Source: an uncultured Flavobacteriaceae bacterium (GTDB lineage: Bacteria > Bacteroidota > Bacteroidia > Flavobacteriales > Flavobacteriaceae). Taken from it: a DNA stretch of 64,000 nucleotides. The notes under the pieces are model-generated. The model made no database searches. It worked only from the letters and a program-made list of their open reading frames with translations, and was not told where the DNA came from. The translations under genes and the position numbers were made by a program. Positions 24,076 to 35,266 of the stretch are shown in pieces (the stretch's first letter is position 1; each line of letters starts with the position of its first letter). The DNA is taken from assembly GCA_913045325.1 (NCBI GenBank), contig CAJWPZ010000007.1, positions 1-64,000 of the forward strand. The letters run 5' to 3'.

Positions 24076-24100
24076 AAAAAAAGGAAGGATTACTTCTTCC
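24076..24100 (-). terminator. Terminator overlapping the end of the polyprenyl synthase gene
   Basis: On the minus strand GGAAG...CTTCC is followed by seven T residues. The stem begins inside the last codons and the stop of the polyprenyl synthase gene, so it is compact but plausible. Confidence 0.6.
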
Positions 24101-25067
24101 TATCGATAACGTAATTTACCATAAGCTTTAATGAATCTTTATATGGCGAGCTTGGATAGGCATCAAGAATAACCAATGCTTTTTGCTGGTAGTCTTTCAT
24201 TTGCTTTTCGGCATAATCAAGCCCGCCAATTGTTTTTACATAGGCTATCACTTGCTTGACACGATCTTTATCTTTGTTGTGGTTTTTTACTGAGTTTATG
24301 AGCCAGCTTTTGTCTTTAGAAGATGCGTTATTAATGGCATAAATTAAAGGAAGTGTCATTTTTTGCTCTTTAATATCGATACCCGTTGGCTTTCCAATTG
24401 CTTGGGATGAATAATCAAACAAATCATCTTTTATCTGAAATGCAATACCTATTAGTTCCCCAAAACTTCGCATTGCTTCTACTTGATGCTCCTGAGAATG
24501 CACAGATTTGGCTCCCATAGCACAACATGCTGCAATGAGTGTTGCTGTTTTTTGACGTATAATTTCAAAGTAAATGGCCTCTGTAATATCTAAGTTTCTT
24601 GCCTTTTCTATTTGAAGCAGCTCCCCCTCGCTCATTTCACGTACTGCTACAGAGATAATTTTTAGTAAATCAAAATCATCATTATCTATAGAAAGCAGTA
24701 AGCCTTTTGATAATAAAAAATCACCAACCAATACTGCAATTTTATTTTTCCAAAGTGCATTTACAGAAAAGAACCCTCTTCTGCGGTCACTATCATCAAC
24801 CACATCATCATGCACAAGGGTTGCCGTGTGTATAAGCTCTATAACTGAGGCGCCTCTGTAGGTTCTTTCATTAACCTGGCCCTCATTGTTCATCTTAGCG
24901 ATAAGAAACACAAACATGGGGCGCATTTGCTTTCCTTTTCTGTTGACAACGTAATGTGTGATTTTATTGAGCAGCGAAACTTTTGAGGTCATGGAATTTG
25001 AAAATTTCTTTTCAAAGAGTTCCATCTCTTTCTCTATAGGGAGTTTTATTTGTGCTACTGTTTTCAT
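24090..25067 (-). CDS. All-trans polyprenyl diphosphate synthase
   Basis: A trans-prenyltransferase that condenses isopentenyl diphosphate onto an allylic diphosphate, probably making the side chain of menaquinone. The first Asp-rich motif is VHDDVVDDSDRRRG and the second is KDDLFDY; GKQMRPMF near the N-terminus is also typical. The length is 325 residues from MKTVAQIKLP, two codons after an alternative ATG at 25073. It follows the fusion gene upstream on the same strand by about 60 bp. Chain length cannot be set from sequence alone. Confidence 0.93.
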   Translation of the reverse strand: MKTVAQIKLPIEKEMELFEKKFSNSMTSKVSLLNKITHYVVNRKGKQMRPMFVFLIAKMNNEGQVNERTYRGASVIELIHTATLVHDDVVDDSDRRRGFFSVNALWKNKIAVLVGDFLLSKGLLLSIDNDDFDLLKIISVAVREMSEGELLQIEKARNLDITEAIYFEIIRQKTATLIAACCAMGAKSVHSQEHQVEAMRSFGELIGIAFQIKDDLFDYSSQAIGKPTGIDIKEQKMTLPLIYAINNASSKDKSWLINSVKNHNKDKDRVKQVIAYVKTIGGLDYAEKQMKDYQQKALVILDAYPSSPYKDSLKLMVNYVIDRKK

Positions 25068-25127
25068 TGGCATATCAAAAGTACGTTAAATAGTAAGAGC
25101 TTATTTATAGTAGATAAAAAGCACAGG

Positions 25128-27659
25128 CTATTTCTTAGCTTTTGTTCTATTTCTGTACAAAGAAACATCAACACAGTTTATCATTTGTTGTGCATCAACT
25201 GGAACACCTAAAAACTTTTCGATGCGCGCTATCTCTGTTGCAGGGTTCTCTAAAACATCTGTATAGTTAACGTATAATATTTCTACACCCGGCTCGCTTT
25301 TATCCCAAAGGGTAACATTGGCTACTAATTTCTGATATTTATTATACAAAGTAACCGGAAACTCCTGCTCACTTTTGCCAATCATCTTTTGTTGAGACTG
25401 GATAATTTCATTTAAATCTCTACGCATAAAAATGATTTTATACCGAAGGGTTGAGTCTAAATATTTAAGCAGCGGCGCAACAACTTTAACGGCCTTTTCT
25501 TGTCCCTTTGAGAGCCAACTATTGTCTTTGTACAATGACATCACTGGCTTGTACTCATAATACCCTTTAGGGTTTGAGATATCTGCCTCACGGAGTTGAT
25601 CTTGAAGGATATCCACCCCTCCTTTGTCAAGCATTTGCATCATAAGTGAGGTTCCAGATCTAGGCAAACCAGAAACTATTGTTACTTGATTTTCTTGATA
25701 TACATTAGAAACCTCTGCCGTGTAATCGATATCTAGGGCTTCTTTTTTTATGATATTATCCAAAGATTGTTTTGCCTTATGAAATTCTTTAGGCTTTAAT
25801 GAATTTGCCATCTCATAAGCAATCTTGGCATTTTCTATATCCCCAAGTTTTTCAAGCGCTTGACCAAGTATTAAATGAGCCTTCGGGAAATACTTAACAA
25901 TCTCTATACTGGTTAAAGCATACTCTGCTGCCTCCTCATACTCTTGTTTGTGCAGTAATATTTCTGCCATTAAAGTATAGTAGGTTGCCTTTTCAGGTTC
26001 TTTTTCTATTGCTTTCTCCAATTGCGGTATTGCGGTATCTAGATTACCCAATACAAAATTAAGAGTTGCTTTTTTGTACAATATTTGCCCAGTAACAGTA
26101 GTGCTTTTATCCAAAATAGCAAGAGCTTCTTTAGGTCTACCTATTTCAGATAAAATATAAGACTCTGTTAAATCTAAATTATAATTTATTTCTGTTTTCG
26201 AGTCTTTCACTTTTTGAAGATATTCTTTGGCCAACACAAACTCTTTTTCTAAAACAGCTATGCTTATCAAATTCATGTAAAAAGGAGCCAAATCTGTAGG
26301 GGGTGTTTCCTCTAAAAGTTCTAAAAGTAATTTTTTAGATGAAGCAAAATCTTTTTTACCCAAATAAACTCTCGCTAAGTTGTGCTTTAAATCTATTCTA
26401 GTCTTTTTTATAGCTACCTCAAATTTCTCATCTAGTTTGTCTACATATCCAAGCTCAACGAGTTGCTCCATTGTCTCGGCGTCAGAGAGCGCATCTGTTT
26501 GTGTTGACACTTTAAGATCTCCAAAATCTCCAGGTTCTTTATCCCAACTTTCAATATAGGTAGGGTCTTGGGTCTCTTTGAAAATATCTAGTATCACCTT
26601 ACCGTCCATATCTTTACCAATTGGCAATCCATAATGATGTAATATCGTTGGTGCTACATCAATTAAACCCATACCAAACACCTTTGTATTTTCTTTTATA
26701 TTAGGCCCTGCAGCTACAAACATACCAAACTGTCTGTGCTCTAGGGAGGGAGCAGCCTGTACTTTTGGCATCTCTAGTATTCTTTTCTCTCCAGATTCAA
26801 AACCATGATCAGACATAACAATAACGGTCGTGTCCTTATCAATTAGCTTTAGCTTACGCTCCAACATCATATCTTGAAAAATATAAGACCCTGTTACTGC
26901 TTCTTTAAAAATGTCATAATTTTCTTTTTCTACCCCTGGTAATTTTGGCGGATGGTATTTCATGAAAGAATGACAAAAATGGTCTATCATATCATAGTAC
27001 ACGGCCATAAAATCCCACTCTGATGTCCTTAAAAGTTTTGTAGCTGCATTGTGTACAGAGGTGTTTTGAGAAACAACACTAGCAATGGCTGCCAAACCTC
27101 TGTGCATATCTTGATCTACATCATGAGCTCTAGGAACAAATGGATAGAGATGCGCCTGTGTTATCTCAAAAGGGAACATGCGCAAATCTTTAAATTCATC
27201 CTTTTTTTCCCAAGGATGAATTACAAACTCACTCATTGGAGTTTGTTTTTTTGGATTTCTAGATGTTTTTTGAAAACGGTCTGAAATTATGGTACCATTT
27301 ATAGGTTCTACAGGAAAACTTGGCCACCACCCTACAAGATTTGACTGTAAGCCTTTGTTATGAAAAATATTCCAAAGCGCTCTTGTTTTTCTTGATGTTG
27401 TTGTAACAGGACGAACAGTTTTGGCATCTGGAGTCACTTCAATAAAACCTAAAACACCGTGCTTATCAGGTGTTTTTCCGGTTGCTACAGAGGTCCACAG
27501 CATAGGAGAATAAGGTGGGTTCATGGTACTCATATTTCCATAAACACCCCTCTGAATTAAACCCTTTAGTGCCGGCATTTTACCTTTGGCAATTAAAGGC
27601 CAAATAATGTCCCAATCTGCAGCATCCCAACCTATAAGTAGTACTTTATTTTTCTTCAT
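25128..27659 (-). CDS. Three-part protein: alkaline-phosphatase-superfamily phosphodiesterase, TPR repeats, sulfotransferase
   Basis: A protein of 843 residues without a signal peptide. Residues 1-400 resemble the type I phosphodiesterase/AP superfamily: LIGWDAADWD holds a metal-binding Asp, PPYSPMLWTS...TGKTPDKHG is the nucleophile region, and DMIDHFCH and MSDHGF carry metal ligands. Residues about 430-640 read as tandem TPR helices (for example LYKKATLNFVLGNL). From residue 657 a sulfotransferase-like domain begins, with the PAPS-binding loop GLPRSGTS and a later RRDLNEIIQSQ region. The ATG at 27659 is preferred to a GTG one codon earlier. A 50-residue gene overlaps its start. A role in modifying a surface glycan or lipid is inference only. 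Confidence 0.85.
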   Translation of the reverse strand: MKKNKVLLIGWDAADWDIIWPLIAKGKMPALKGLIQRGVYGNMSTMNPPYSPMLWTSVATGKTPDKHGVLGFIEVTPDAKTVRPVTTTSRKTRALWNIFHNKGLQSNLVGWWPSFPVEPINGTIISDRFQKTSRNPKKQTPMSEFVIHPWEKKDEFKDLRMFPFEITQAHLYPFVPRAHDVDQDMHRGLAAIASVVSQNTSVHNAATKLLRTSEWDFMAVYYDMIDHFCHSFMKYHPPKLPGVEKENYDIFKEAVTGSYIFQDMMLERKLKLIDKDTTVIVMSDHGFESGEKRILEMPKVQAAPSLEHRQFGMFVAAGPNIKENTKVFGMGLIDVAPTILHHYGLPIGKDMDGKVILDIFKETQDPTYIESWDKEPGDFGDLKVSTQTDALSDAETMEQLVELGYVDKLDEKFEVAIKKTRIDLKHNLARVYLGKKDFASSKKLLLELLEETPPTDLAPFYMNLISIAVLEKEFVLAKEYLQKVKDSKTEINYNLDLTESYILSEIGRPKEALAILDKSTTVTGQILYKKATLNFVLGNLDTAIPQLEKAIEKEPEKATYYTLMAEILLHKQEYEEAAEYALTSIEIVKYFPKAHLILGQALEKLGDIENAKIAYEMANSLKPKEFHKAKQSLDNIIKKEALDIDYTAEVSNVYQENQVTIVSGLPRSGTSLMMQMLDKGGVDILQDQLREADISNPKGYYEYKPVMSLYKDNSWLSKGQEKAVKVVAPLLKYLDSTLRYKIIFMRRDLNEIIQSQQKMIGKSEQEFPVTLYNKYQKLVANVTLWDKSEPGVEILYVNYTDVLENPATEIARIEKFLGVPVDAQQMINCVDVSLYRNRTKAKK

Positions 27660-27798
27660 CACTGCGAAATTTATTGTGCGCTATCTTTACTTTTCTCCAG
27701 GCATCAAAGCCAATATCACCCAAAGCCAAAATGGCTAAAGAACCTTCTGGGGTGACTTTTTTGGGATCAAAAACTACTATTTTGGATTTTTCTTTCAT
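27646..27798 (-). CDS. Small protein of 50 residues, coupled to the fusion gene
   Basis: A short frame, MKEKSKIVVFDPKKV...KFRSDEEK, starting at an ATG at 27798. Its last 14 nt overlap the start of the phosphodiesterase/TPR/sulfotransferase gene, so the two are likely translated together. It contains a strand (KIVVFDP), a possible helix (SLAILALGDIGFDAWRKVK) and a charged tail. I do not recognise the family. The overlap, ATG start and A-rich leader are the support; it is too short for length alone to argue for it. Confidence 0.65.
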   Translation of the reverse strand: MKEKSKIVVFDPKKVTPEGSLAILALGDIGFDAWRKVKIAHNKFRSDEEK

Positions 27799-27898: not shown

Positions 27899-28717
27899 AT
27901 GAAAAAAAATACTTCAACAAAATTAGCAAAAAGACTAGCCCAATACGGAGCTTTATCTGCTGCTGTATTAGGGGTAGCTGACGCATCTGGTCAAGTGACT
28001 TATACAGACGTAAATCCAGATATCGTTCTTGACTTAGGCGATACGTTTGACGTTGATTTTACTGGAGCGGTTCCTGAAGGAAACGTTCAAATCTCTAACC
28101 CTGCAGATCTTGCCGGTGGTACTGCTGCCTTAGCATTCCCAAGTTCTGGTGGAGCCTTAGTTGGTTTTACAGCAGGTGGGTATGAGTATCCACTTGTACT
28201 TGTAGACGGAGACGTTATTGATGATGCTTCTGGTTACACTACAGTTGGTGTACGTGGAGATTTAAATTACTACGGTTGTGCTTATTCAAACAGTCAGTGG
28301 TGTGATTTCGTTGAAGACGGAATCTTAGGTGTATCTTTTGTATTTAACGGAAACACTCACTATGGTTGGGTTCGTATGGATACAGATGTAGGTGCAGATG
28401 ATGTAATTACTGTTAAAGGATTTGCTTTTGAAGCTACACCAGATACTGCAATAGTTGCAGGAGATGAAGGAACTTTAGGAAACAATGACAACAACCTTAA
28501 CGGTTTTGCACACTTTGTTGCAGATGGTCAATTAAACCTTAAAGCTAACACTACAATGAGTAGCGTTGCTGTTTTTGATATTACTGGAAAACAAGTAATT
28601 ACACAAAACTTGACAAGTACAAATGCACAGGTAAACCTTGCTGGTCTTAACACTGGAGTTTACATTGCAAAAGTATCTATTGAAGGTTCTGAAGAGTCTT
28701 TCAAGTTTGTAAAGTAA
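27899..28717 (+). CDS. Secreted surface protein with T9SS type A C-terminal domain
   Basis: A 272-residue protein with a basic N-terminus (KKNTSTKLAKRLAQY), a hydrophobic segment and a cut near DASGQ. The middle is acidic and beta-rich and includes NTHYGWVRMDTD and two Cys residues close together (YYGCAYSNSQWC). The last 75 residues or so are a type A sorting domain (GLNTGVYIAKVSIEGSEESFKFVK), which directs export by the type IX system and surface attachment. The function of the middle part is unknown. It is divergent from the 50-residue gene and the fusion gene and ends at a strong terminator. Confidence 0.88.
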   Translation: MKKNTSTKLAKRLAQYGALSAAVLGVADASGQVTYTDVNPDIVLDLGDTFDVDFTGAVPEGNVQISNPADLAGGTAALAFPSSGGALVGFTAGGYEYPLVLVDGDVIDDASGYTTVGVRGDLNYYGCAYSNSQWCDFVEDGILGVSFVFNGNTHYGWVRMDTDVGADDVITVKGFAFEATPDTAIVAGDEGTLGNNDNNLNGFAHFVADGQLNLKANTTMSSVAVFDITGKQVITQNLTSTNAQVNLAGLNTGVYIAKVSIEGSEESFKFVK

Positions 28718-28737: not shown

Positions 28738-28770
28738 ACAAAAAAGAGCGCTAGAAATAGCGCTCTTTTT
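28738..28770. terminator. Bidirectional terminator after the first T9SS cargo gene
   Basis: AAAAAGAGCGCTA, loop GAAA, TAGCGCTCTTTTT is a perfect 13-bp stem at 28741-28770 with A and T runs on both sides. It serves the cargo gene and would also end transcription of the rlmN remnant. Confidence 0.85.
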
Positions 28771-28953
28771 TTATTGTTTATTAGCTAACTGACCACAAGC
28801 AGCATCAATATCTTTACCTCTACTTCTTCTTAGGGTAACAGGAATTCTAACTTTTTCTAACATCGATATACACAAATCAAGGGTATGTGCAGCTTTACTC
28901 CAAAGCCACGCACAAAGTTGATTGACTCGAAATGCCTTATCGCCTCGGTTTTA
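28771..28953 (-). pseudogene. Remnant of a second rlmN, internally deleted
   Basis: The part at 28771-28886 aligns with the last 115 bp or so of intact rlmN (29944 onward) with about nine mismatches. The encoded ends are identical over the last 17 residues (RGKDIDAACGQLANKQ), and the fragment has only three amino-acid changes. The next 65 bp match rlmN near codons 24-44 (QVYQWLWSK here reads QLCAWLWSK). The middle 750 bp or so and the N-terminus are missing, and an in-frame TAA sits at 28951-28953. Most differences are silent, so this copy diverged while functional before it was deleted. Confidence 0.85.
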
Positions 28954-28997
28954 AAATCAATGTAGTCTAAAAAACTATTTACTCGATATATAATTGA

Positions 28998-29027
28998 TTG
29001 TATTTTGAAATTAATAGTGTATATTTA
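28998..29027 (+). promoter_or_regulatory. Promoter of the second T9SS cargo gene
   Basis: TTG at 28998-29000, a 19-bp spacer, then TATATTTA at 29020-29027 fit the Bacteroidota promoter with one mismatch in the last base. The ATG follows 28 bp later at 29056. Confidence 0.6.
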
Positions 29028-29055
29028 CAAATAAACTTAATTAAAAAATTTTATC

Positions 29056-29898
29056 ATGAAAAAAATTACACTTTTAGCAGCATTTTTTGTCGCTTTTACT
29101 ATGAATGCACAACTTTTAAATGAGGGTTTTGATGATATAACAACCCTAGTAGATTACACTGTACTAAATGTTAGTGATATACCAAATACTGATTTTTTCC
29201 AAGGAAATACAGACGTTTTTATTGCTCAATCTGGGGCAAACGATTCATACCTAGCTACAAATTATGATGCAACATCAGGATCTACTATTGATTTATACAT
29301 AATTCTTCCTGCTTTAGAACTTGAAAATGGCGATGAACTTACCTTTTACACCAGTACTCTAGAAGGAAGTACTTATCCAGACAGGTTAGAAGTAAGAATA
29401 GACCCAGATGGATCCGGGGAAAATCCAACTTCTGAAAATACTGGTTCTTATACGGAACTTTTATTAGAGATTAACCCTTCCTTATTACTAGGAGGGTACA
29501 ATGAAGTTTGGGGATTACAAACTGTGATAGTATCTGGACTTACAGGACCAACTACTACCAGACTTGCTTTTAGATATTGGGTAACAGATGCAGGCCCTCA
29601 AGGTGTTAATTCAAACTATATTGGCATTGATACTTTGGAAATAAATGAAATATTAAGTGTTTCAGATGAATCTTTCAACAACTTCAATTATTATACAGCA
29701 AATAATAAATTGTTTATAAACGCTAGTACTTCCCTAGAAAACATAGAGTTATATAACTTATTAGGACAAGAAGTTTTTTCCAAAAGTCTTTCAAATACTA
29801 ATGAGACTATAAACATTGCTTCTTTAGAAACAGGTATTTATGTTGCTAAAGTAAGTATTGATGGAAAATCTAAATCATTCAAAATAGTTAAAAATTAG
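29056..29898 (+). CDS. Secreted adhesin-like protein with T9SS type A C-terminal domain
   Basis: A 280-residue protein with a clear signal peptide (KKITLLAAFFVAFTMNAQ). Residues about 22-200 resemble the choice-of-anchor J / cleaved adhesin jelly-roll family: LLNEGFDD, SYLATNYDATSGSTIDLYI in part, RLEVRIDPDGSG and LAFRYWVTDAG. The last 70 residues or so are a type A sorting domain ending in GIYVAKVSIDGKSKSFKIVKN. Its C-terminal domain resembles that of the upstream cargo gene, but the bodies differ. It converges on intact rlmN, sharing a terminator. A role in surface binding is inference. Confidence 0.86.
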   Translation: MKKITLLAAFFVAFTMNAQLLNEGFDDITTLVDYTVLNVSDIPNTDFFQGNTDVFIAQSGANDSYLATNYDATSGSTIDLYIILPALELENGDELTFYTSTLEGSTYPDRLEVRIDPDGSGENPTSENTGSYTELLLEINPSLLLGGYNEVWGLQTVIVSGLTGPTTTRLAFRYWVTDAGPQGVNSNYIGIDTLEINEILSVSDESFNNFNYYTANNKLFINASTSLENIELYNLLGQEVFSKSLSNTNETINIASLETGIYVAKVSIDGKSKSFKIVKN

Positions 29899-29911
29899 TT
29901 TACTAATTATT

Positions 29912-29945
29912 AAAAAAGAGCAGCTAAATTAGCTGCTCTTTTTTT
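29912..29945. terminator. Bidirectional terminator between second T9SS cargo gene and rlmN
   Basis: AAAAAGAGCAGCT (913-925 in the 29 kb block) pairs with AGCTGCTCTTTTT around AAATT. A and T runs flank both sides, so it serves both converging genes. Confidence 0.85.
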
Positions 29946-30984
29946 ATTGTTTATTAGCCAACTGCCCACAAGCAGCATCTATATCTTTACCTCTACTTCT
30001 TCTTACGGTTACAGGAATTCTTGCTTTTTCTAACATAGATATATACAAATCAAGAGCTTTGTTATCTGCCTGTTGAAACATTCCATCATCAATAGGATTG
30101 TATTCAATGATATTGACCTTGCAAGGCACATAGCTGCAAAATTTAATAAGCGCGGCTACATCTTGTTTTTGATCATTTATACCATTCCAAACAACATACT
30201 CATAGGTTATTTGCTTGGCTGTTTTTTCATACCAATACTCTAAAGATTCCTTAAGATCTGTTAGTGTGAAAGATTTTGCAAAAGGCATGATTTTCTCGCG
30301 GGTTTCTTGAATAGCAGAGTGTAATGATACCGCTAGATTAAACTTTACGTTATCGTCAGCCATTTTCTTTATCATCTTTGGAACACCAGATGTGGAAACC
30401 ACAATACGTTTTGGTGACATGCCAAGTCCTTCCTCGCTAGTTATTTTTTCTATAGCAGCCAACACGTTTTTATAATTCATAAGGGGCTCACCCATACCCA
30501 TAAAAACAATATTAGACAATGGCCTGTTATGATATAATCTACTCTCTCTATCAATGGCAACTACTTGATCATAAATCTCATCAGGGTTTAAGTTACGCAT
30601 GCGTTTTAACCGTGCAGTTGCGCAAAAACTACAATCTAAACTACAGCCTACTTGAGAAGACACGCAAGCGGTGGTTCTTGTGCCTGTGGGTATTAGTACA
30701 GACTCTACAACTAAACCATCATGCAGCTTTACACCATTTTTAATGGTACCGTCCTTACTTCTTTGTATGCTATCTACCTTAATGTGGTTTATAACAAAAT
30801 GTGCCTGCAAATGATCTCTGGTTTGTATGGAGAGGTTTGTCATTTGGTTAAAAGTGTGTACTCCTTTACTCCAAAGCCACTGGTATACTTGATCACCTCT
30901 AAAGGGTTTGTCTCCAATAGTTTCAAAAAAAGAGCGAAGTTCTTCTTTTGATAATGCACGTATGTCTTTTTTGCTTTGCTCCAT
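29944..30984 (-). CDS. rlmN: 23S rRNA / tRNA adenine-C2 methyltransferase RlmN
   Basis: A radical-SAM enzyme that methylates C2 of A2503 in 23S rRNA and A37 in some tRNAs. The CxxxCxxC cluster motif is at residues 114-121 (GCSLDCSFC). A conserved Cys lies near the C-terminus (DAACGQL), and VVSTSGVPKMIKK and NLAVSLHSA are typical. The length of 346 residues is normal. A partial duplicate of this gene lies upstream at 28771-28953. Confidence 0.97.
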   Translation of the reverse strand: MEQSKKDIRALSKEELRSFFETIGDKPFRGDQVYQWLWSKGVHTFNQMTNLSIQTRDHLQAHFVINHIKVDSIQRSKDGTIKNGVKLHDGLVVESVLIPTGTRTTACVSSQVGCSLDCSFCATARLKRMRNLNPDEIYDQVVAIDRESRLYHNRPLSNIVFMGMGEPLMNYKNVLAAIEKITSEEGLGMSPKRIVVSTSGVPKMIKKMADDNVKFNLAVSLHSAIQETREKIMPFAKSFTLTDLKESLEYWYEKTAKQITYEYVVWNGINDQKQDVAALIKFCSYVPCKVNIIEYNPIDDGMFQQADNKALDLYISMLEKARIPVTVRRSRGKDIDAACGQLANKQ

Positions 30985-31085: not shown

Positions 31086-32735
31086 CTACTTATCTATACT
31101 AATTTTTTTAGTGATTTGCTCATTGGTATTGCCATCAATAAGCTGCAAGAAATAAATACCTTTAACCACACTTTCAACATTAATAAGGTTATCTGTATTT
31201 GAGAGAGAACCTCCCATTACCCGTTGCCCGGTAGCACTATACAAATTATAAACAAGGTTAGGATACCTTGTATTTGTAACCCTAAGAACACTTGATGCTG
31301 GGTTGGGGTATATCTCTAAAACTCCTGTTAATAGGTTATCTGGCACCCCTAATATGTTTTGCACAGATTCTGTTGTAGTTTGTCCTGTTCCTAAAGGATC
31401 AAGCCAATCTTTAAGCCTTGAGGAGGCGCTTTGTCCAGCATCCCAAGAGACGCCAAACCTGCCATAAATATCATAATCGTTGTTGTTTTGTGTGCCTACA
31501 CAGTTAGATAGTCCTGCGTACAATTGGCCAATGATTTTTCCTGTATCACTAAAAAGTGGAGACCCCGAAGAACCGCTTTCGGTGGTTCCTAGCTCCCAAC
31601 CATCACCACTACCTACAGATACCCCGCCAATAAGCCAAACCTGGGTTCCGTTTGCGTCCTCTTTTACAGCGCCATCATCATCTCTGGATATCTTCATGAT
31701 ATCTCCATTAGGATGATGAATACCTACCTCAAAAAGTGGATCTGTGTCGCTTCTATCCCAGCCTGCAAAAACAATGTCCCAGGAAGCAGGAATTGGGTTG
31801 ACAAGTTCTACCAATGCAAAATCACTGAGCGCGTTACTAGCCCTAAGGGTAGCACCACTAATAGTGAAATTTGTTTGTATATCTATACTTGGCTCTTCTT
31901 GAGCACAAACAGGCCCTGGGCTCATCCAGTTAAAACGAACGCTCCAATAAGTAGGATCACTATTTTGCAAACAGTGATTTGCTGTTAACAAAAATGGTTT
32001 TTTATCTCCCGCAGTGTTATTGAGCATAGATGCAGAGCATAAATACCCGTTACCTAGGGTGAGTAATGCCACCGCTTTTTTAATGCTATTTTTATGACTT
32101 TCGAAATCATCACCAACTGGGCAGTTTACATCATAGTTGCATGCGCCGCTATCGTTAAAATCTTTGTTTTTGGCCACAAACTGGGTTACCTTTCCCATTC
32201 TATAGCCATGAATAATACTTCCTATTTTTAATCTAGAGATTTGATTTATACCCGGAGGTTCAAAGTATTCTATCCAAATCACATCACCAGAGACAAACCA
32301 AGAACCTAGTTTACCATTAGGAGTGTTTTCTAGGGAGCCGTAGGTACGTGAAACGTCTGTTCTATCTCCATTAAAGAGTTGCAAACGAGCACCGTTTGGT
32401 ATAAAAATATCATCAAAATTTACACTTAAATTTACAGCATCTGGAGATCTAACACCTATAATCCATACCCTTCCTTGCTCATTTGGGAGGGTTGTCCAAG
32501 AACCTTGGGTGTCTATATCTATATCAAGTGGTCTTGAAATACCATACCGCCAGGGTTGATTTTTATAGATATCATTCAAGGCGTCTTCTGCTACAATAGC
32601 CTCAAGATCTAGAGGCGGCAAGGAAATTATTTTAGCCGGTGAGTCTAAATTTAAATCCCAACTAAGGGGCTCCTGTGAGCACATGGGCAGCACAGAAACT
32701 AGAAAAACGAATAGGTATGTGAGATTTTTTATCAA
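31086..32735 (-). CDS. Secreted trypsin-like serine protease with T9SS type A C-terminal domain
   Basis: A 549-residue protein with an N-terminal signal peptide (LTYLFVFLVSVLPMCSQ). A propeptide-like region covers about 22-195. A chymotrypsin-fold protease domain follows, with the Cys-rich start ACNYDVNCPVGDD, catalytic His254 in TANHC, Asp305 in SDFALVE and Ser390 in GSSGSP. This pattern resembles lysyl endopeptidases (family S1). The last 80 residues or so are a type A sorting domain (IYPNPASSVLRVTN...GIYFLQLIDG), so it is a T9SS cargo. Cleavage specificity cannot be fixed from here. Confidence 0.9.
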   Translation of the reverse strand: MIKNLTYLFVFLVSVLPMCSQEPLSWDLNLDSPAKIISLPPLDLEAIVAEDALNDIYKNQPWRYGISRPLDIDIDTQGSWTTLPNEQGRVWIIGVRSPDAVNLSVNFDDIFIPNGARLQLFNGDRTDVSRTYGSLENTPNGKLGSWFVSGDVIWIEYFEPPGINQISRLKIGSIIHGYRMGKVTQFVAKNKDFNDSGACNYDVNCPVGDDFESHKNSIKKAVALLTLGNGYLCSASMLNNTAGDKKPFLLTANHCLQNSDPTYWSVRFNWMSPGPVCAQEEPSIDIQTNFTISGATLRASNALSDFALVELVNPIPASWDIVFAGWDRSDTDPLFEVGIHHPNGDIMKISRDDDGAVKEDANGTQVWLIGGVSVGSGDGWELGTTESGSSGSPLFSDTGKIIGQLYAGLSNCVGTQNNNDYDIYGRFGVSWDAGQSASSRLKDWLDPLGTGQTTTESVQNILGVPDNLLTGVLEIYPNPASSVLRVTNTRYPNLVYNLYSATGQRVMGGSLSNTDNLINVESVVKGIYFLQLIDGNTNEQITKKISIDK

Positions 32736-34030: not shown

Positions 34031-35266
34031 CTAACAAAAATCTGCGCGTATCCCCACCTTTTTTAAATCAGAATAAAAATTTGGGTATGATTTTGTGACC
34101 ACCATAGGGTCTTGGATAGTAATACAAAACAACTCGGCCAACACCCCAAAAGCCATAGCCATTCTATGGTCCTCATAGGTAGCTATTTCTATGCCTAGGT
34201 CCCTATTTTTAAAGGCTATTTTATGAGGCTCTAAAAGCAATGAGTTTTGGGTAACCTTTACCTGTGCGCCTAATTTGGTTAATTCATTTTGCAGCGCCAC
34301 TAGCCTATCAGTCTCTTTTATTTTAAGGGTATGTAATCCTGTAAGATGGCAGGCTATCCCTAAACCAAAACAAGTAACAGCAATGGTTTGAGCCAAATCT
34401 GGGCTTGGGGTTAAATCTGCCTTAAACACTGAGGGTAGCAGAATGTTATTTTTGGTCAGGGCTATGGTTTGGGAATCTATAGCTGTGGTTGTGACCCCTA
34501 ATTTTTTATACATAGACACCAATGCGGCGTCTGCTTGCAAACTAGTTGTTTTAAAACAACTAAGGTGTACACTTTGGTTTTTGGACAGCGCCACTAAACT
34601 ATAAAAGTAAGATGCCGAACTCCAATCTCCCTCAACAGCAATCTTAACCTTGTTGCTTTTTTTTAAGGGAAGTATCCTAATCTCTTGACCTTTAAAAGTA
34701 TGCGCTACTCCAATTTGGGACAGTAAAGATAAGGTCATATCAATATAGGGTTTTGAGGTAATGTTGCCCTTAAGGGTAAGGGTAAGCCCTTTTTTTAAAT
34801 AAGGTCCAATAAGCGCTAATGCAGAAATGTATTGACTACTCACACTGGCATCTATTGTGACACTACCACTGAGCACGGCAGGTGCTATTTTAAGAGGAGG
34901 ATATCCTTTTTTGCCTGTATAGGTTATAGCGGCTCCCATATCCCTTAAAGCGGCTACCAAATGGCCAATAGGCCGCTGACACATTGAGGGGCTTCCAGTG
35001 AGGGTAATTTCTTTTTTTGTAGTTGCGGCTAGATAGGCAGTTAAAAAACGCATTGCCGTTCCTGCATGATGAATATCTAGGGTATCCTCTTGGCTAGCAA
35101 GGGCTTTTTGCAATACAAGGGTGTCATCACAGAAGGCTATATTCTCTATCTCAATATCTGGATATAAGGCTTGCAGAATTAACAGTCTATTACTCTCACT
35201 TTTAGAACCAGACAAAAAAATGGAAGCCTTGGATACATCTTTATATTTTGAGAGTTTTGCAATCAT
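34031..35266 (-). CDS. aroA: 3-phosphoshikimate 1-carboxyvinyltransferase (EPSP synthase)
   Basis: Penultimate enzyme of the shikimate pathway, making EPSP from shikimate-3-phosphate and PEP. The family motifs are GSKSESNR near residue 20, AGTAMRFL, the KETDRL block and EDHRMAMAF near the end. The length of 411 residues is slightly short. The site after AGTAMR reads FL, not PL as in E. coli. It shares 4 nt (ATGA) with the membrane-protein gene that precedes it in the transcript. Confidence 0.95.
   Translation of the reverse strand: MIAKLSKYKDVSKASIFLSGSKSESNRLLILQALYPDIEIENIAFCDDTLVLQKALASQEDTLDIHHAGTAMRFLTAYLAATTKKEITLTGSPSMCQRPIGHLVAALRDMGAAITYTGKKGYPPLKIAPAVLSGSVTIDASVSSQYISALALIGPYLKKGLTLTLKGNITSKPYIDMTLSLLSQIGVAHTFKGQEIRILPLKKSNKVKIAVEGDWSSASYFYSLVALSKNQSVHLSCFKTTSLQADAALVSMYKKLGVTTTAIDSQTIALTKNNILLPSVFKADLTPSPDLAQTIAVTCFGLGIACHLTGLHTLKIKETDRLVALQNELTKLGAQVKVTQNSLLLEPHKIAFKNRDLGIEIATYEDHRMAMAFGVLAELFCITIQDPMVVTKSYPNFYSDLKKVGIRADFC

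Follow-up and report, generated by a model that had tools for sequence, protein, structure and literature searches.

The window, the whole stretch of 64,000 nucleotides that was analyzed, is contig 7 of a 51-contig draft assembly (1.88 Mb, ~90% complete), and its genome, here designated G000, belongs to the same genus as Patiriisocius marinus KCTC 32322. From left to right, the locus contains dnaG (−), ispB (−), a phosphodiesterase-TPR-sulfotransferase gene (−), cargo gene 1 (+), an rlmN remnant (−), cargo gene 2 (+), intact rlmN (−), a gene for a trypsin-like T9SS protein (−), and queA (−), where dnaG, ispB, and queA are presumptive names based on their sequences. The features are as follows; G003 is a second MAG of the genus, from another species, and G220 is a genome of another genus.

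24090 to 25073, minus strand: ispB, polyprenyl synthetase; far border of the variable slot (order rlmN-slot-ispB in 164/181 loci)
25128 to 27662, minus strand: phosphodiesterase-TPR-sulfotransferase gene; slot partner of cargo gene 1, accompanying cargo1-type genes at other loci
27899 to 28717, plus strand: cargo gene 1; 272 aa, T9SS type A sorting domain; older neighbor of rlmN in the genus
28740 to 28771, no strand: two-way terminator of cargo gene 1 and rlmN; genus type, GAGCGCTA...TAGCGCTC
28771 to 28881, minus strand: rlmN remnant, 3' piece; codons 310 to 346 plus stop; nearest to the host's own rlmN
28881 to 28882, no strand: inner joint of the remnant; apparent ancestry switch in alignments, identities, and trees; possible microhomology, C-TTGAT
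28882 to 28944, minus strand: rlmN remnant, 5' piece; codons ~24 to 44; G003 type by identities and the AU test
28945 to 29055, no strand: weak rlmN continuation to ~28967, then the cargo gene 2 upstream region, as judged by aligning G220 and the starts of rlmN genes; 96/107 positions identical in the corresponding stretch of G003
29056 to 29898, plus strand: cargo gene 2; 280 aa, choice-of-anchor J domain and T9SS type A sorting domain; judged horizontally moved from its codon identities
29912 to 29944, no strand: two-way terminator of cargo gene 2 and rlmN; G220-like type, GAGCA-CTAA-TTAGCTGCTC
29944 to 30984, minus strand: intact rlmN; 346 aa; TIGR00048, 374 bits (cutoff, 290)

Both cargo proteins match the type A T9SS sorting domain TIGR04183 (43.2 bits for cargo 1 and 45.5 bits for cargo 2; cutoff, 23), profile searches also assigned NF038128 (choice-of-anchor J) to cargo 2, and T9SS machinery is present in the genome (SprA match, 2,805 bits). 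A cargo1-type T9SS gene and the phosphodiesterase-TPR-sulfotransferase gene, the latter encoding 844 to 867 aa, form a recurring divergent pair that in many loci jointly fills the slot between rlmN and ispB, in the window and also at L069, L071, L076, L088, L146, L194, L219, L220, and L239. Compared with its counterparts in G001 (L061) and L071, cargo gene 1 differs strongly in its body (57 to 58% amino acid identity overall), and the sorting-domain end is far more alike, as though gene bodies had been swapped between conserved ends. On the other side of rlmN, DNA identity between G003 and G000 drops to 67 to 76% in the trypsin-like gene (31086 to 32735) and in aroA (34031 to 35266), with queA between them at 86%, which suggests either allele exchange beside the slot or faster evolution. 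No direct repeat of 30 nt or longer other than the rlmN pair was found within 24 to 36 kb, none of the slot genes tested matched a mobile-element family, and neither a transposase or integrase nor terminal repeats were found at the slot borders. Sigma-70 promoter scans gave results at chance level. The host has dprA and ComEC-like genes, which are compatible with DNA uptake but are no proof of it.

The rlmN remnant at 28771 to 28944 is real, and both of its pieces align above chance. A 120-nt direct repeat (28762 to 28881 and 29935 to 30054; 93% identity) includes the 3' piece, which is identical to the last 37 codons of intact rlmN at 102 of 111 positions. Six of the nine mismatches are silent and three are not; random change would give 21% silent (P = 0.004). 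The 5' piece is identical to codons ~24 to 44 at 43/63 positions, with an alignment score of 24, compared to a maximum of 17 in 200 shuffles and of 16/15 in the remaining window. Between the pieces, ~800 bp of the intact gene is absent, and weak rlmN homology may extend to ~28967 (codon ~13). The initial annotation had described this structure well, in that about nine mostly silent mismatches at the 3' end, the jump to the 5' part of rlmN, and the position of cargo gene 2 between the remnant and the intact gene were all recovered; its loss of ~750 bp was also seen, with a size of ~800 bp here. Its reading of the silent-dominated divergence as a sign that the remnant had evolved as a working gene did not hold up: by our own estimate ~60% silent changes, compared to the 6/9 observed, are expected when divergence is equally shared, and a silent excess is no proof of a separate functional life because the intact rlmN contributes silent changes too.

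The two pieces differ in their divergence from the host rlmN, the 5' piece being 68% and the 3' piece 92% identical to it, a contrast that the initial annotation had not noticed. The 5' piece matches the intact rlmN of G003 at 57/63 positions and the G003 remnant at 56/63, and its tree was (G003 rlmN,(G003 remnant, G000 remnant)), with support values of 81 and 99%. Placement of this piece beside the host rlmN was rejected by the AU test (P = 0.0002), and a vertical history, with all intact genes together, was rejected less firmly (P = 0.03 in the AU test and P = 0.16 in the SH test) for a piece of only 63 bp. For the 3' piece, the next best matches after the host rlmN were G003, G007, and L071 (95/111 each), with fewer identities to all others, and a G003 origin was not formally rejected (AU P = 0.067); proximity to the host's own gene weakly suggests that this tail is resident. 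Clustering of the remnant with the host rlmN, which would have spoken against the initial annotation, is not seen for the 5' piece, and this objection therefore fails. The remnant has a mosaic ancestry, shown strongly by the 5' piece and weakly by the tail, and of the two pieces only the 5' piece is clearly foreign. The apparent ancestry switch coincides with the inner joint, so that the ~800-bp gap at 28881/28882 may have arisen by recombination and not by a later deletion. The intact rlmN of G000 contains no clear donor tract.

G003 shares the layout of the window, with the order reconstructed across a contig gap that falls within cargo gene 2: rlmN and the 3' end of cargo gene 2 lie at the end of contig C41, and the start of cargo gene 2, a remnant, and cargo gene 1 lie at the start of contig C24. 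The layout is thus not strain noise. The G003 remnant is longer (~450 bp; codons ~13 to 133, ~235 to 273, and the last few), and this difference in extent indicates that the two remnants decayed separately. In both of them, rlmN homology fades near codon 13. Relatives with one rlmN and no second cargo gene, which the initial annotation had proposed to look for, do exist: G010, G007, and G001 have a single rlmN facing cargo gene 1, so that the arrangement is not common to all relatives. In L071 and G008, a single rlmN faces a diverged cargo1 type; G002, in which the contig ends within the rlmN tail, was left unscored. No intermediate with rlmN and cargo gene 2 alone was found in the genus. As a separate observation, dnaG of G010 (L060, 1845 to 3804) reads in two overlapping frames near codon 530, so that this MAG has either a frameshift or a sequencing error there.

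Over the last 40 codons of cargo gene 2, G000 and G003 share 36 of 38 synonymous states, compared to 0.49 to 0.77 in neighboring genes. As a sign of recency this is, on its own, no more than suggestive, because a few 40-codon windows elsewhere (in cargo gene 1 and the phosphodiesterase gene) reach about the same level. The surviving remnant sequences, which are free to decay, are 56/63 alike, whereas four-fold sites in neighboring genes are 35 to 60% identical (76% in cargo gene 1). The spacer upstream of cargo gene 2 is 90% identical (96/107), which is not telling, since other intergenic stretches reach 87 to 93%. Site-pattern (ABBA-like) counts along the flanking genes gave by themselves no sign of recent G003-to-G000 transfer; with G000 branching at the base of the other close relatives, these counts are likewise not telling.

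Cargo gene 2 has relatives that face rlmN next to ispB in many genera, and the best of them outside the genus is that of G220 (82% amino acid identity), also facing rlmN beside ispB. Between G000 and G220, the identity of codons for the same amino acid is 186/226 (0.82) for cargo gene 2, 131/249 (0.53) for rlmN, and 119/244 (0.49) for ispB. The hairpins at 28740 to 28771 and 29912 to 29944 are each strong, with energies of about −19 to −20 kcal/mol and z scores between −5.6 and −7.4. The initial annotation had called them similar, but their core sequences differ, which it had not seen. The terminator beside cargo gene 2 (GAGCAGCTAATTTAGCTGCTC, then AATAATTAGTAAA) matches that of G220, and the one beside cargo gene 1 and the remnant is of the genus type (GAGCGCTATTTCTAGCGCTC), a hairpin type also present in G010, G001, G007, G002, and L071. 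Since codon identity to G220 exceeds that of rlmN and ispB and the terminator is shared with that genus, these comparisons show that cargo gene 2 moved horizontally together with its terminator. The rlmN genes of the window are not from the genus of G220. The initial annotation had envisaged a cargo gene acquired in linkage with a foreign rlmN, with the surplus copy decaying; the link between recombination at rlmN and acquisition of cargo gene 2 stands, but the rlmN linked to cargo gene 2 did not come from the donor genus of cargo gene 2. In G003, the terminator beside cargo gene 2 (L059, 8426 to 8480) is of the genus type up to a sharp switch into cargo2-linked sequence, a pattern that is likely due to gene conversion between the two rlmN tails.

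Of the 181 distinct flavobacterial rlmN loci compared, ispB lies downstream in 164. The slot between the two genes is empty in 89 of these and filled with differing genes in 75; in 59 of the 75, the first gene encodes a T9SS sorting domain, and 58 of those genes are convergent with rlmN. Eight genomes of 1.9 to 3.7 Mb contained just 19 to 101 such domains each, indicating that the slot is strongly enriched for T9SS cargo, with the reservation that the loci are phylogenetically related and not independent. The rlmN-ispB gap has conserved borders with variable content and, for one gene (cargo gene 2), a content history differing from that of its borders, as do horizontal-transfer hotspots, in which variable content between conserved core-gene borders is exchanged by recombination in the borders. 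What sets this slot apart from generic hotspots is that it is a specific site in which a single functional class predominates, namely T9SS cargo genes that are convergent with rlmN.

Remnants of rlmN were found at three of the 181 loci, i.e., in the window, P. marinus, and Lacinutrix jangbogonensis, each time beyond the cargo gene or genes now adjoining rlmN and in the orientation of rlmN. The remnant of P. marinus KCTC 32322 (L076, 13522 to 13690) includes a terminator copy. The genes on its rlmN side, which encode 467 and 268 aa, have counterparts in G005 (74 and 85% amino acid identity), where they alone fill the slot, and those on its far side (a cargo1-like gene and a phosphodiesterase gene) correspond to the sole slot content of G008. 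Since each of these contents occurs singly elsewhere, P. marinus carries two alternative contents stacked in one slot and separated by rlmN debris, just as cargo genes 2 and 1 are stacked in the window. In L. jangbogonensis PAMC 27137, the remnant (L094, 12286 to 12390) lies between gldC and a cargo gene whose product shares 79% identity with the slot cargo of Oceanihabitans. Seams of this kind have arisen independently in at least two other flavobacteria. In a search of 397 genomes of the family with a pattern for the RlmN C terminus, two copies were seen only in G000 among the matches listed, indicating that well-preserved rlmN tails are rare and that decayed ones require a local search.

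We consider it probable that the remnant is a recombination seam, left by a one-sided homologous recombination at rlmN that brought in a second slot content. The rlmN-ispB gap of the Flavobacteriaceae is a variable slot, either empty or holding T9SS-secreted cargo that usually faces rlmN, and a fragment with rlmN and cargo gene 2 content would have recombined into a chromosome carrying rlmN and cargo gene 1 content. One end would have been joined by homology in or upstream of rlmN; the other, upstream of cargo gene 2, would have been fused within the resident rlmN in the absence of homology, as happens in homology-facilitated illegitimate recombination. The outcome would be one working rlmN, both cargo contents, and a truncated rlmN left attached to the old cargo gene; lacking a start codon, this truncated stretch would have decayed. 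Intact rlmN adjoins cargo gene 2 in G000 and G003, as it does in G220 and many genera, and the rlmN tail and genus-type terminator are still attached to cargo gene 1, as displaced resident sequence would be. Upstream of cargo gene 2, the joint with rlmN lies near codon 13, and the corresponding region of G220, which is not necessarily that of the immediate donor, fails to align across it. In the lineage of the window, the block may have come from, or been exchanged with, a G003-like relative, which would explain why the surviving 5' piece is of the G003 type and the tail of the resident type. We infer the one-ended mechanism and the direction of transfer.

The same gene order would result, though we regard this as unlikely, if a circularized or partly homologous donor carrying a piece of rlmN and cargo gene 2 had integrated by a single crossover, or by an interchromatid event, doubling rlmN around cargo gene 2, with the copy cut at codon ~13 then decaying. 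The remnants of P. marinus and L. jangbogonensis are nearest to their own genome's rlmN, which fits duplication of a resident gene too, and in G003 the intact rlmN and the remnant lie nearer to one another (88% alike) than to the intact genes of other species. In Streptococcus pneumoniae, transformation with donor DNA of partial repeat homology generates merodiploids with tandemly duplicated segments (PMC3784515); there, ~100 to 900 kb lies between the repeats, whereas here at most one gene does. Such an integration requires a circle or an interchromatid event and, as the 5' piece of the window is not of the host type, a further exchange, whereas one-ended insertion accounts for all three seams without duplication. 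An old vertical event appears improbable; it would place the duplication before the split of G000 and G003, with cargo gene 2 and the remnant lost from G010, G007, G001, and L071 by recombination between rlmN tails and the likeness of the remnant to G003 due to gene conversion in G003. The terminator beside cargo gene 2 in G003 does look converted to the other type, and the basal position of G000 relative to G007, G010, and G001 makes an excess of site patterns towards G003 partly expected. Nevertheless, this history has the AU P value of 0.03 given above, requires at least two losses, and sits poorly with freely decaying remnants that are more alike than the four-fold sites of their neighbors. 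That rlmN was simply duplicated in tandem in this strain, one copy then decaying with no relation to the cargo genes, agrees with the affinity of the 3' piece but is very improbable, being contradicted by the AU test on the 5' piece, the same layout in a second species, the horizontally moved cargo gene 2 with its own terminator, and the recurrence elsewhere of seams beyond cargo genes. An assembly chimera of two strains, conceivable for a draft genome and for a MAG (G003) that breaks at this locus, is scarcely credible given that the two separate assemblies share the layout with remnants differing in length and sequence and that seams of this kind occur in two isolates, P. marinus KCTC 32322 and L. 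jangbogonensis PAMC 27137.

In the literature searched, no description of the rlmN-ispB slot, of rlmN remnants, or of T9SS hotspots was found. A recombination seam of the kind favored here resembles the type VI secretion system (T6SS) effector modules of Vibrio cholerae, for which sequential displacement by homology-facilitated illegitimate recombination was proposed (PMC5361080): in both cases, genes for secreted proteins enter at one fixed position next to a conserved anchor and push the old neighbor outward, and a displaced fragment remains at the seam. Unlike those modules, the genes here encode T9SS surface cargo without immunity genes, and the anchor is the housekeeping gene rlmN, a piece of which itself marks the seam.

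The recurrence of the seam is the interesting part. We tentatively suggest, as a possibility that we hold to be less secure than the reading of the window itself, that the 3' end of rlmN could be a recurrent docking site for T9SS surface-protein genes in the Flavobacteriaceae, at which one-sided homologous recombination in rlmN would exchange slot contents between genera and at times stack them, with each remnant recording a stacking. The ways in which flavobacteria acquire and exchange secreted surface proteins independently of mobile elements have been little described. In this case, the anchor appears to be a conserved housekeeping gene, whose debris is a readable record of the addition of a second cargo gene. 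Any flavobacterial genome can readily be surveyed for this slot, which makes the rate and mechanism of T9SS cargo exchange testable.
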